Assembly (NCBI RefSeq): GCF_027595165.1
Contig: NZ_CP097291.1
Span: 310,001 to 374,000 of the forward strand
Length of the DNA stretch: 64,000 bases
Direction of reading: 5' to 3'
Source of the DNA: Providencia sp. PROV188
Lineage (GTDB): Bacteria > Pseudomonadota > Gammaproteobacteria > Enterobacterales > Enterobacteriaceae
The position numbers and the translations under genes were made by a program. Of the stretch, positions 56,208-60,551 are shown in pieces (within the stretch, counting starts at the first letter, position 1; every line of letters begins with the position of its first letter). The notes beneath the pieces are model-generated. The model saw only the letters and a program-made list of their open reading frames with translations, was not told where the DNA came from and ran no database searches.

Positions 56208-58475
56208 ATGAGGGCATTGATCGTTTATACCGAGCTTACAGACGAAGATTCTGTGATAAGCCATGCGGTTGCGCGGCTGGCAAGCGAACTGAATGACGAA
56301 CACGTCGAAACGGTCATTATCCGTGATTTTGAAGACGGTCTCGCCTATCTTCGCTCAAACACCAGCATTGACTGCTTACTTTACGGACGAGATATGTCCG
56401 ATAAGGAAGAACAGGCTCAAGCTCACCGGCTGATCACCCAACTACATCGTCGCCAAGAAGATGTGCCCGTTTTTCTGTTGAGTGATCGTGAAGAAGCCTT
56501 AGTGGCATTTGATAGAAAAATGATGGAGCAAGTGGATGAATTTGCATGGATTTTAGAGGACTCCGCGGACTTTATTGCCGGACGTGTTCTTGCTGCTATC
56601 ATCCGTTACCGTGCGCAATTGCTCCCACCATTAATGAAAAGTTTGATTAAATACAGTGATGTACACGAACACTCATGGGCAGCACCGGGACATCAAGGCG
56701 GAGTGGGTTTCACTAAAACGCCAGCAGGGCGTATTTATCACGATTTTTTTGGCGAAAATTTATTCCGCACAGATATCGGCATCGAGCGAGTTGCCGTTGG
56801 TTCATTGCTCGATCACACTGGGGCATTTGGCGAGTGTGAGAAAAACGCAGCACGGATTTTTGGTGCAGATCAATCCTATTCTGTAGTGGTCGGGACTTCG
56901 GGCTCGAACCGTACCATTATGCAAGCTTGCATGACGGATGACGATGTGGTGGTCATTGACCGAAACTGCCATAAATCCATCGAACAAGGCTTGATTTTAA
57001 CGGGAGCAAAGCCTGTTTATATGGTCCCGAGTCGTAACCGTTATGGAATTATTGGACCGATTTACCCCACAGAAATGTCTCCTGAAGCCATTCAGAAAAA
57101 GATTGCTGATAATCCATTTACTGCCGATAAAATCGGTAAAAAACCGGCGTATAGCGTGGTCACAAACTGTACTTATGATGGTGTTTGCTACAACGCGCGC
57201 AAAGTGCAAAATTTATTGGATAAATCCCTCGATAGAATTCATTTCGATGAGGCATGGTATGGCTACGCGCGATTCAATCCGATTTATCGTGACCATTTTG
57301 CGATGCGTGATGAAGAGCGCAAAGACGATGACCCTACCATTTTCGCTACTCACTCAACGCACAAATTATTGAATGCGCTGTCGCAAGCTTCGTTCATTCA
57401 TGTTCGTAATGGACGTAATGCCATTGATTTTAATCGCTTTAATCAAGCCTATCACATGCATGCAACCACATCGCCGTTGTATGCCATTTGCGCATCGAAC
57501 GATATTGCGGCAGATATGATGGATGGAAATAGTGGGCGCTCATTAACCGATGAAGTGATCCGCGAAGCCATCGACTTTCGTCAATCACTCGGCTATCTGT
57601 ACAAAGAGTTCCAAAATGATGGTGAGTGGTTTTTCAAACCGTGGAATCAGGAAACGGTGAAGGATCCTGCAACTGGTGAGCGTTATGATTTTGAGTTTGC
57701 CCCTGTTGAATTGTTGATGAAAGAGCAAAGCTGCTGGGTAATGAACCCTGAAGATACGTGGCATGGTTTCAAAAATATTCCTGCAGATTGGGCGATGTTA
57801 GACCCTATCAAAGTGAGTATTTTGGCACCAGGAATGGGGGACGATGGCAAGCTACTTGATTCCGGTGTTCCTGCGGCGCTCGTCACCGCATGGCTAAATC
57901 ACTATGGTATTGTGCCGACCCGCACTACCGATTTCCAAATTATGTTCCTGTTTTCTATGGGGATCACCAAAGGAAAATGGGGCACATTAGTCAATGCATT
58001 GCTCTCCTTTAAACGCCACTATGATACCAACACTCAACTGAAAAAAGTGTTACCTGAAGTGGTGGAAGTGGCGCCTGAAATTTATGGTGAGATGGGGCTG
58101 AGGGACTTGGGGGATAAGATGTTTGCTTATTTGCAGCGTAATAATCCGGGAAGTCAGCTAAATCAAGCCTATTCAGAGTTACCCAATGTCATGATGAGCC
58201 CACGTGATGCCTATCAACAGATTGTTGCGAATCGCGTTGAAGCTGTGCCGTTAGATAAGCTGGCTGGGCGTATTGCAGCGAACTCGATTATTCCTTATCC
58301 ACCGGGGATCCCAATGTTGTTATCCGGCGAAAGCTTTGGAGAAACTAACAGCCCGCATATTGGCTATTTGCGTAGTTTACAAGCATGGGATAGTGAGTTC
58401 CCGGGTTTTGAACATGAAACGGAAGGCACGGAAAAAATTGATGGCGAATACCATGTTATGTGCGTGAAGGTGTGA
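56208..58475 (+). CDS. adiA: Biodegradative arginine decarboxylase AdiA
   Basis: 755 residues, the same length as E. coli AdiA, and similar along the whole chain. N-terminal wing domain (about 1-130), then the PLP fold with K386 in ATHSTHKLLNALSQ as Schiff-base lysine, WAAPGHQGGVGFTKTPAGR and FRTDIGIERVAVGSLLDHTGAFGE. Converts arginine to agmatine with proton consumption, the basis of arginine-dependent acid resistance. GAGGGAGAGTCC gives the ribosome site. No adiC antiporter or adiY regulator is next to it in this window. Confidence 0.96.
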   Translation: MRALIVYTELTDEDSVISHAVARLASELNDEHVETVIIRDFEDGLAYLRSNTSIDCLLYGRDMSDKEEQAQAHRLITQLHRRQEDVPVFLLSDREEALVAFDRKMMEQVDEFAWILEDSADFIAGRVLAAIIRYRAQLLPPLMKSLIKYSDVHEHSWAAPGHQGGVGFTKTPAGRIYHDFFGENLFRTDIGIERVAVGSLLDHTGAFGECEKNAARIFGADQSYSVVVGTSGSNRTIMQACMTDDDVVVIDRNCHKSIEQGLILTGAKPVYMVPSRNRYGIIGPIYPTEMSPEAIQKKIADNPFTADKIGKKPAYSVVTNCTYDGVCYNARKVQNLLDKSLDRIHFDEAWYGYARFNPIYRDHFAMRDEERKDDDPTIFATHSTHKLLNALSQASFIHVRNGRNAIDFNRFNQAYHMHATTSPLYAICASNDIAADMMDGNSGRSLTDEVIREAIDFRQSLGYLYKEFQNDGEWFFKPWNQETVKDPATGERYDFEFAPVELLMKEQSCWVMNPEDTWHGFKNIPADWAMLDPIKVSILAPGMGDDGKLLDSGVPAALVTAWLNHYGIVPTRTTDFQIMFLFSMGITKGKWGTLVNALLSFKRHYDTNTQLKKVLPEVVEVAPEIYGEMGLRDLGDKMFAYLQRNNPGSQLNQAYSELPNVMMSPRDAYQQIVANRVEAVPLDKLAGRIAANSIIPYPPGIPMLLSGESFGETNSPHIGYLRSLQAWDSEFPGFEHETEGTEKIDGEYHVMCVKV

Positions 58476-58621: not shown

Positions 58622-59341
58622 TTATCGGCGTATTATTTGAGAAAATTGGTTATCGACCAATTGGATTAATGGGATTTGTTGTTTGTTAAAATAATCTTTA
58701 TCTTCAATAAAGCCTAATTGATGGCAATATTGTGAAGCGTAGCCACTGACTAACAGTTTCCAGTTAAATTTAAAATCAGGGTAGGTTTTTTTGGCGATTT
58801 TATAAATGCTGGTTGTGCAGTTATTCCACATGGAATGGTATTTTTCGTTGGTCTCTTTGAGCTGATTAAGTTTGCTCATATAATTGAGAAACAGTTCTGT
58901 AATAAGTGGCTTATCTAAATTTAAGGGATAAATATAGACTTGCTCATTGCGTAAATTAACGCGAGTACCAATTAAATCCTGCTCATCAGCAACTACATAG
59001 ATAATATCGTAGTTATAGAAAAATCCCTTCCAAACTGAAAATTGTTGATGTGCTTTTCGCCTTGTCTCGATAGAAAAAGAGACATAATCCCCATTGGAAA
59101 AACCGAAGCTCAGAAAAACATGGGCGATCATTTTGCCAGACCAGTGGGATTGTACTAAATCTACACTTTGCAAGTTAGACAGATTGTAATGCTTAGTATC
59201 CCAAGTATATTCATTTTTGTCGGCAAACTGAAAAGAGCGAAAATTATGGATGGAGATGTCTGAAGTTTCGTTATTAAAATCCATATGGGATTTATAGCGA
59301 TACTCCGTTCTCCACTCATTCTGAGGTAATAGATTGCTCAT
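58622..59341 (-). CDS. DUF4105 (Lnb N-terminal domain-like) protein
   Basis: 239 residues. The whole chain follows the DUF4105 pattern (Pfam name: Lnb N-terminal periplasmic domain): I-H-N-F-R-S-F-Q-F, then SVDLVQSHWSGKMIAHVFLS with the conserved His, FGFSNGDYVSFSIETRR, YDIIYVVADEQDLIGTRVNL and MWNNCTTSIYKIA with the conserved Cys. Counted from the in-frame GTG at 59347 these are H76 and C177. Such proteins have a permuted papain/NlpC-P60-like H...C site; the family includes the lipoprotein N-acyltransferase Lnb. No signal peptide is visible here. It starts at ATG 59341, or GTG 59347 one base after the upstream gene's stop, so the two are coupled. Confidence 0.8.
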   Translation of the reverse strand: MSNLLPQNEWRTEYRYKSHMDFNNETSDISIHNFRSFQFADKNEYTWDTKHYNLSNLQSVDLVQSHWSGKMIAHVFLSFGFSNGDYVSFSIETRRKAHQQFSVWKGFFYNYDIIYVVADEQDLIGTRVNLRNEQVYIYPLNLDKPLITELFLNYMSKLNQLKETNEKYHSMWNNCTTSIYKIAKKTYPDFKFNWKLLVSGYASQYCHQLGFIEDKDYFNKQQIPLIQLVDNQFSQIIRR

Positions 59342-59348
59342 CTGCACG

Positions 59349-60551
59349 CTACATTTTTAATAAAACGGACATGGCGCGGGAATAATCTAAAACAATGCCC
59401 GGTGTCCACGTCATAATACTTGCATGTTTTCTGAGTTGGGACATAACCCAAAGCTCAGGGCTAAAGAGCAATTTAAGCAGTAGCATGAAACCGCCTTTTT
59501 TCTCAGTAAAATATCCCTCGGTACTTTTTATCAGCGCCAAAGAAACGACGGTTGAACAATTACGACTAGTTAAATTGTAGGTCGTGTCTTTACTGTATTC
59601 TTGCCAGAATGCGTCTAGCTTTTCTTTGCTGATCCCTTCAATGGTTAATTTGAAGTTTGATGGTGGCGCAATTTTCATTTCATCAAGATAACTGATTTGA
59701 AAAACGCCTGTGTCATTGTTTTCTTCGGTGGATTTTAATATCTGCAAGAATTGCGCGGTATCGCGGTCGATATCTTTTTCTGGATAGTGGCTGATATAAA
59801 TTTCATCCAGTTCAAAAGCAACATGCCCTGTACTAATCACGCCCAATGAATTACGGGAAACAATATAGCGTTGGATAATTTTAAAAAATAGTGGAAGTTG
59901 CCCAGTCGTTGTCCATACATGTAATGTGCCGCGCTCTCTATTTGAAGCGTCATTATTGCGCGTAAATACCATATGATTGGCATTGGGAATTTGGCTGCTC
60001 ACAACAAAGTAGTAAACAAAGAATGAGTCGAGGGAGAAGATCATAATCAGCGTGCCGACATCCCAATAAACTTGGCGAGATGAATAGTCAAAAGACCAAG
60101 GAATGAAATTCCATAAACCTAATGAGAATTCAATAATGGAGACAGTGAGCATCAACTTCCAGCGTTTAAATTTCAAAACCACGCTATTGGACATTTTCCA
60201 GATAGCACTGACCATGAGATATAAGCCAGTAATAAATCCAGAGAGAACGGTTTCCCACGCATGTATTTTAGAAAACAAGACAATGTAGACCATTAAAAGT
60301 AGCACTAATCCGCGACTGATCCTCAGTCCTCGGGTAGCACCTTGGCAATACATTGCGCAGACAAACGAGCGAATGGCTTCCAATAAAATTGGAATACAGA
60401 GGAAGATCATAAACTCATGGGGATCAGCAAAAAAAGGTAATAGAAAAAAGCAGGCACCAATCAGTACACCAAATAATGTGAGTGCCAGAATAAACCAGAA
60501 ATATTTTTTTGCTGTGTCTCTGCCATAGAGCATCGTAATGATATAAATCAT
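59349..60551 (-). CDS. Membrane protein with C-terminal putative thiol-enzyme domain
   Basis: 400 residues. The first 185 hold about six transmembrane helices in pairs, reminiscent of HdeD/DUF308 proteins (not certain). The C-terminal 210 residues are soluble and contain STGHVAFELDE (H243) and YNLTSRNCSTVVSLAL (C332), the H-then-C order of permuted NlpC/P60 or LRAT-like thiol enzymes. Thus it may carry a second enzyme of the same broad fold as the DUF4105 protein encoded one base downstream. The pair is AT-rich and lies at the edge of the accessory segment between adiA and yheS. Substrate unknown; an acyl or amide transfer at the envelope is an inference. Confidence 0.65.
   Translation of the reverse strand: MIYIITMLYGRDTAKKYFWFILALTLFGVLIGACFFLLPFFADPHEFMIFLCIPILLEAIRSFVCAMYCQGATRGLRISRGLVLLLMVYIVLFSKIHAWETVLSGFITGLYLMVSAIWKMSNSVVLKFKRWKLMLTVSIIEFSLGLWNFIPWSFDYSSRQVYWDVGTLIMIFSLDSFFVYYFVVSSQIPNANHMVFTRNNDASNRERGTLHVWTTTGQLPLFFKIIQRYIVSRNSLGVISTGHVAFELDEIYISHYPEKDIDRDTAQFLQILKSTEENNDTGVFQISYLDEMKIAPPSNFKLTIEGISKEKLDAFWQEYSKDTTYNLTSRNCSTVVSLALIKSTEGYFTEKKGGFMLLLKLLFSPELWVMSQLRKHASIMTWTPGIVLDYSRAMSVLLKM

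Follow-up and report, generated by a model that had tools for sequence, protein, structure and literature searches.

Gene organization of the locus

The analysed window comprises 64,000 nucleotides of Providencia sp. PROV188 (contig NZ_CP097291.1, positions 310,001 to 374,000) and contains, on its reverse strand, two genes whose products of 400 and 241 residues are referred to here as P400 and P241 (Table 1). A single base (59348) separates the stop codon of P400 from the GTG codon at 59347 that opens the P241 frame, in agreement with a preliminary description of the locus, which placed the two open reading frames one base apart. That description numbered P241 from this GTG. An open reading frame does begin there, but the conserved start is probably the ATG at 59341 (MSNLLPQ...), because the homologues at loci L002 and L006 start at this codon.

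Table 1. Features of the P400/P241 unit in the window
Feature	Position	Strand	Basis
P400, 400 aa: DUF308/HdeD-like six-helix membrane half and C-terminal H...C domain	59349..60551	-	Open reading frame, alignments, hydropathy
P400 residues 24-176: three hairpins from six hydrophobic segments, positive loops on the N/C side	60024..60482	-	
P400 residues 206-400: candidate catalytic-type C-terminal domain	59352..59936	-	Alignment
H243 codon of P400, within S-T-G-H	59823..59825	-	Invariant, 32/32
C332 codon of P400, within R-N-C-S	59556..59558	-	Invariant, 32/32
P241: DUF4105/Lnb_N protein without a leader, 241 aa if read from GTG (239 aa from the probable start, ATG 59341)	58622..59347	-	
H76 codon of P241 (GTG numbering)	59120..59122	-	Invariant
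C177 codon of P241 (GTG numbering)	58817..58819	-	Invariant

Compared with the orthologues at L006, the dN/dS values were 0.047 for P400 and 0.051 for P241, with five of the eight comparisons saturated at silent sites. Among named records, the closest P400 sequences found were from P. rettgeri PROV023 and P. alcalifaciens DSM 30120, with 98% and 93% identity, respectively. Upstream of the pair in the window lie a gene for an ABC-F ATPase and kefG. An arginine decarboxylase gene (window 56208-58475, NF011603) is located downstream in convergent orientation, and genes for a MurR-like regulator, MurNAc-6-phosphate etherase (MurQ) and a MurNAc PTS protein follow beyond it. At this site, an HdeD-like gene thus has a likely acid-resistance gene as its neighbour, which is not the case at the second site found in Providencia (see below). 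Promoter-like sites were about as frequent as in shuffled sequence (9 against a mean of 10.3), and three terminator-like sites were counted against 1.4.

P241 and the leaderless DUF4105 clade

P241 matched the Pfam profile Lnb_N (PF13387) with an E-value of 3.2e-37 (128.2 bits against a cut-off of 22.2) over profile positions 4-158 of 175; a scan against NCBIfam gave no match. H76 and C177 are invariant in all seven aligned proteins, and the same columns are conserved in 34 of 34 proteins of a wider alignment, the trimmed reference of which numbers these residues 69 and 170. The assignment of P241 to DUF4105 with a conserved H76 and C177, which was made earlier from the sequence, is therefore well founded. 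A Cedecea protein with the same domain has also been named DUF4105 by PGAP.

By its profile match and its invariant His and Cys, P241 resembles the DUF4105/Lnb_N proteins, a group that covers both the Bacteroides lipoprotein N-acyltransferase and the DUF4105 proteins of proteobacteria. It differs from these relatives at the N-terminus: 12 distinct DUF4105 proteins that are encoded co-directionally beside P400 genes have no N-terminal hydrophobic segment, whereas such a segment is present in all 22 other distinct proteins tested. This comparison started from 46 fetched DUF4105 loci (the 30 best matches of the genome search and 16 chosen for their short frames) and left out 24 that were not recovered by the profile, many with frames of at least 600 codons. 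The P241 clade is further distinguished by its position next to P400 and by its occurrence in cells that possess Lnt. The three shortest DUF4105 open frames in the genome search (244, 255 and 281 codons) are likewise leaderless and adjacent to P400, in a ranking that leaves out a partial match of 194 codons near a contig start in genome G488. No leaderless DUF4105 protein without a P400 neighbour was found among those tested.

In a tree of DUF4105 proteins from which pieces shorter than 180 residues were left out, the leaderless partners form a single clade (support 100/98). The P400 proteins of these partners occupy three places on the P400 tree, and well-supported branches force three changes. 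The Providencia P400s lie on a long branch (3.35), and their place in the tree is therefore less sure. The pattern may reflect either repeated pairing or an old pairing followed by losses.

Domain composition of P400

Six hydrophobic segments (residues 24-41, 49-64, 81-93, 104-120, 138-147 and 164-176) were found in P400 in addition to a short hydrophobic N-terminus (residues 1-9). H243 and C332, in the part that follows, were invariant in 14 of 14 and then in 32 of 32 aligned homologues, in accordance with the earlier view of P400 as a protein of about six helices followed by a soluble domain with these two residues. They belong to the 31 invariant columns of the 32-member alignment, which contain no further His or Cys; the next-best conserved residue of these two types in the window protein is H211 (29 of 32). 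Of 44 open reading frames of the P400 family that were collected, 38 were used in the hhalign comparison described below. The six left out, which lack the exact motif strings, are two pieces of a broken gene in genome G010 and four sequences that were put back in alignment A5; ten of the 38, among them the broken L010, are in turn absent from that alignment because they are related to sequences already included.

The window P400 itself matched no Pfam model at E-values up to 1 (DUF308 appeared at 7.9) and no NCBIfam model at E-values up to 10. Its relatives were more informative. Among the 32 family members, 21 matched DUF308 (PF03729) at E-values up to 1 (best, 3.1e-6), 18 matched the HdeD model NF007577 at E-values up to 0.1 (best, 2.5e-6), and 17 matched Lnb_N at E-values up to 1 in a scan of 24,736 Pfam models (best, 6.8e-4). 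When eight members were scanned singly, DUF308 was found in the N-terminal half of five, always below the cut-off (the member with the best DUF308 match is not one of these eight), and Lnb_N in the C-terminal half of four, again below the cut-off, and in none of the other four. These Lnb_N matches were confined to profile positions 106-172, the half that contains the Cys. In the genome search, the P400-family frame of G639 just reached the Lnb_N cut-off (22.2 bits). RefSeq names homologues of P400 'HdeD family acid-resistance protein' and, in Pantoea soli, 'DUF4105 domain-containing protein'. Because the homologues match these models and carry these names, P400 is best read as an HdeD-like bundle joined to a remote DUF4105-like domain.

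The kinship of this second domain was also sought by profile and structure comparison. With hhalign, the C-terminal domain of P400 was not significantly similar to DUF4105 (2% probability, E = 0.024), although the best alignment pairs the N-C motifs of the two, and it scored lower still against YiiX (0.6%, E = 0.1). Six pairs of other profiles, run as controls, gave E-values of 0.08-0.7, and DUF4105 against YiiX gave 15% and 0.0019. Structure models of both proteins, built from five-row alignments, had mean pLDDT values of 35 and 48 and were not trusted. A Foldseek search of the PDB with the P241 model returned no match at E < 0.001 and mostly matches to fluorescent proteins, which were discarded, and the best hits of sequence searches of the PDB (E = 0.18 and 0.11) were regarded as noise. 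Related folds had been proposed for the two proteins. The Lnb_N matches in 17 of the 32 family members speak for this part of the proposal, but those in the members scanned singly are partial and lie in the Cys half, and the hhalign score is not significant. The reading that the C-terminal part of P400 is probably a remote relative of DUF4105/Lnb_N is therefore weakly supported.

Recurrence of the pair

Among 41 genomes, including that of the window, orthologues of P241 and close orthologues of P400 were found in exactly the same 10. The pair thus recurs in other genomes, contrary to the possibility, raised in the preliminary description as a potential refutation, that the two genes never co-occur elsewhere. 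Within Providencia, 10 of 24 genomes contain the pair, five contain a P400 paralogue of 31-41% identity (in pieces in one genome), and nine contain neither. The pair and this paralogue, which is linked to a MASE1 gene, never occur together in the 24 genomes, at a chance of 0.047 that ignores kinship and was not used as evidence. Providencia chromosomes carry the pair at two different sites, with the gene order unchanged. At the second (G014 and G021), it is flanked by modC on one side and a gene for pyridoxal phosphatase on the other, so that a fixed link to the arginine decarboxylase gene was ruled out. Two of the 10 pairs from Providencia seem to contain a broken gene: the DUF4105 gene in BIGb0506 (G014; L021 7219-7950) and the P400 gene in P. 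burhodogranariea DSM 19968 (G021; L022 5896-7053).

Of 34 genomes with a P400-family gene, 13 matched PF13387, in 12 cases through a separate gene near P400 and in one through the P400-type protein's own domain. Ten of the 12 neighbouring cases are from Providencia; in G728 the two genes overlap by four bases, and in G633 they are separated by one gene for a small membrane protein. The latter (L085 7318-7887) appears by eye to have multiple helices and matched no NCBIfam model, and the end of its gene overlaps the start of the DUF4105 gene. On a Cedecea plasmid, genes for MASE1, P400 and DUF4105 proteins stand in a row, and the DUF4105 gene runs into an IS3 element. On an Ochrobactrum plasmid, a convergent DUF4105 gene near P400 encodes a protein with helices of its own, and on a Chelatococcus plasmid the DUF4105 gene lies >100 kb from P400. 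A chance of 2e-9 calculated for the adjacency assumes three independent lineages and was not used as evidence.

When P400 alone served as the query against 369 genomes of the class, only the genome of the window and one weak match (E = 7e-4) were detected; this search was insensitive and was replaced by alignment-based searches. These detected the P400 family in 17 of 398 sampled genomes of Pseudomonadota, one of which (G743) matched the helical half only. DUF4105 proteins were not enriched in the P400 genomes of this sample (3 of 17, with the self-match of G639 left out, versus 82 of the 381 others). The association of P400 with DUF4105 is therefore one of place and not a general co-occurrence. 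Furthermore, a leaderless DUF4105 partner is absent for 26 of the 32 P400 proteins sampled, so that the pair represents one arrangement within a broader P400 family. In tblastn searches of 72,556 plasmid records, 44 contained P400 relatives; the match spanned at least 80% of the query in 30, and identities were all <60%. No P400 match was found in a collection of 50,697 phage records.

Predicted membrane topology and possible function

Signals and helices were judged by hydropathy throughout this study. The mean number of Lys and Arg residues along P400 (32 sequences) is 2.78 at the N-terminus, 0.28, 3.06, 0.28, 2.31 and 0.19 in the successive loops, and 4.41 after helix six. Because this pattern conforms to the positive-inside rule, both termini of the membrane half are predicted to face the cytosol, and the enzyme domain with them. 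HdeD is an inner-membrane protein, and a C-terminal msfGFP fusion was visible at the membrane, according to the available part of PMC9769608. P241 has neither an export signal nor an N-terminal hydrophobic segment, and together with the charge pattern of P400 this leads to the prediction that both enzymes are located on the same inner side of the membrane.

We favour, with a probability of about one half, a pair of thiol acyl-hydrolases or acyltransferases that acts at the inner leaflet. The two closely spaced genes would form one unit encoding two enzymes that assemble at the inner membrane, on its cytosolic face. The six-helix bundle of P400, of the HdeD/DUF308 type, would sit in the membrane and present on its cytosolic side a permuted papain-like thiol domain (NlpC/P60, LRAT/YiiX/DUF4105) with H243 and C332 as putative catalytic residues, and P241, from a lineage without anchoring helices, would most likely dock on P400 or on the adjacent membrane. 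Both thiols would probably form acyl-enzyme intermediates, by which acyl groups of a lipid or of another acylated amphiphile at the inner leaflet may be hydrolysed or transferred, perhaps in sequence, with one enzyme removing and the other transferring the group. The preliminary description suggested that both proteins act on the same substrate, and P400 and P241 may indeed share a lipid or envelope substrate. More generally, we infer from the sequence comparisons the cytosolic location, complex formation, catalysis, acyl chemistry and lipid substrate that this scheme contains. As for related enzymes, the available part of PMC12994826 describes Tox-Act1 as cleaving PG and PE, LRAT and YiiX-like members as lipid enzymes, and DUF4105, including Lnb of Bacteroides, as the sister clade of Tox-Act1.

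A more comprehensive proposal, which we put forward tentatively, is that the whole family represents an undescribed system for inner-leaflet acyl transfer. The HdeD-type bundle with its fused cytosolic permuted papain-like enzyme would serve as the anchor and first enzyme. In some lineages, a DUF4105 protein that had lost its anchor and its periplasmic location would follow as second enzyme on the lipid used by the first, and in others a MASE1-PAS sensor would take its place together with exporters of the small or MFS type, forming a general module for handling lipids or amphiphiles.

Efflux-linked detoxification and a role in acid or envelope stress are live rivals to the favoured acyl-hydrolase/acyltransferase pair. 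In the former, which we consider rather unlikely, a toxic amphiphile would be modified by the enzymes within the cell and expelled by a partner exporter. The P400 gene does adjoin exporter genes in other lineages: an MFS gene on the same strand overlaps it or lies within 10 bases in 4 of the 32 cases (L034, L035, L087 = L054 and L093 = L065) and, outside the 32, at three further annotated plasmid loci, and SMR genes follow or flank it in L011, L012, L040, L041 and L158. The best matches of the one SMR protein scanned were Qac/EmrE models, below their cut-offs. These adjacency counts, however, carry no control for exporters beside membrane-protein genes generally, and no such exporter was found among the six scanned neighbours of the window pair (arginine decarboxylase, MurR-like, MurNAc PTS, MurQ, ABC-F and KefG), so that a Providencia exporter would have to be encoded elsewhere.

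Slightly less probable, in our judgement, is an acid or envelope-stress module. Membrane stress would be sensed or buffered by the HdeD-like part, and the enzymes would alter the membrane lipids in response, with a MASE1 or MASE1-PAS protein as sensor where one is present. The HdeD model matches in the family favour this interpretation, as does the convergent gene in the window, since arginine decarboxylase is an acid-resistance enzyme. A MASE1-family gene is located upstream on the same strand in 7 of the 32 cases (L011, L012, L039, L041, L042 = L074, L043 = L075 and L064 = L092); all three MASE1-family proteins scanned exceeded the MASE1 cut-off, and PAS_3 was matched in two, in one above the cut-off. 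However, no MASE1 gene lies beside the window pair, and the decarboxylase link varies, given the different neighbours in G014 and G021. HdeD itself, to our knowledge, has no enzyme domain, which also counts against a stress module. The available part of PMC9769608 assigns hdeD a different role, in repressing flagellum synthesis.

A toxin-immunity pair or another type of conflict pair was considered because Tox-Act1, a family of T6SS toxins, forms the sister clade of DUF4105 in the available part of PMC12994826, and the patchy distribution and plasmid carriage of the P400 family would fit it. It is nevertheless very improbable: none of four proteins matched a PADLOC model at E-values up to 1, no secretion gene was found among the six scanned neighbours of the window pair, the phage records contained no P400 match, and both genes have low dN/dS values and both proteins retain the His and Cys. 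The least probable reading is a periplasmic Lnb-like N-acyltransferase for diacylated lipoproteins, as implied by the preliminary description; P241 belongs to Lnb_N, and DUF4105 has been identified as Lnb in Bacteroides (PMC12994826, available part), but P241 and the other partners lack a hydrophobic N-terminus, the P400 domain is predicted to be cytosolic, and Lnt (TIGR00546) scored above its cut-off in all 12 genomes with the pair, so that P241 does not stand in for a missing Lnt and lipoprotein N-acylation is unlikely.

Relation to known systems

With HdeD/DUF308 proteins (NF007577, PF03729), P400 shares the six helices, the three hairpins, the N-in/C-in distribution of charges and the weak matches of its family. 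It differs from them in the extra H...C domain of approximately 195 residues and in the divergence of the window protein, which is too great for a match at E-values up to 1. An MFS protein encoded together with a possible acyl-handling enzyme, as in some P400 loci, is reminiscent of LplT-Aas, a lipid-linked MFS/acyltransferase couple. This likeness concerns gene context only, and there is no MFS gene beside the Providencia pair.

A further likeness is to the permuted NlpC/P60 papain-like enzymes (LRAT, YiiX/C92, TseH and Tox-Act1), with which, as far as the available part of PMC12994826 describes them, the pair shares the order of His before Cys (H243 and C332; H76 and C177), a Cys in an N-C context and possibly lipid or acyl chemistry. 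For P400, however, this likeness is at the level of motifs, the fold is a candidate, and no toxin or secretion context was seen. The same part of PMC12994826 makes no mention of a fusion of these enzymes to an HdeD-like bundle.

The component families are known. The HdeD-DUF4105-like fusion, the leaderless partner and their pairing were not found described in the literature searched, which lay outside most subscription papers, bioRxiv preprints and supplementary files; no joint mention of DUF4105 with HdeD, or of any two of the HdeD family, the MASE1 domain and DUF4105, was found there either, and apparent mentions of DUF308 in three papers referred to DUF3089 or DUF3085. This agrees with the preliminary description, whose author knew of no described system of this form. 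If our interpretation is correct, the pair would include an enzyme of the DUF4105/Lnb type at the cytosolic surface of the membrane, a location for which we found no description in the same literature. It would also provide a likely enzymatic function for a family that is currently labelled HdeD acid-resistance protein, MFS transporter, TctB transporter or protease, and the substrate of the fused enzyme would offer a route to what DUF308/HdeD bundles do.

Other loci of the P400 family

The P400 paralogue (about 433-437 residues) occurs in other Providencia in a MASE1/P400-like/SMR run (L011-L015 and L158). It was found in the five Providencia genomes mentioned above, with the broken gene in G010, and on an 18.8-kb plasmid of P. 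rettgeri, and a profile search detected no DUF4105 protein in these five genomes. In alphaproteobacteria and in an Enterobacterales relative, P400 overlaps or nearly touches an MFS gene on the same strand (L034, L035, L087, L093, L159, L160 and L161), an arrangement that suggests translational coupling of the two genes. Among 5,426 complete genomes of E. coli, 3 have the E. coli version of P400 (L040 6001-7768) on a plasmid; the one plasmid inspected contains IncF replicons and has an SMR gene beside the P400 gene.
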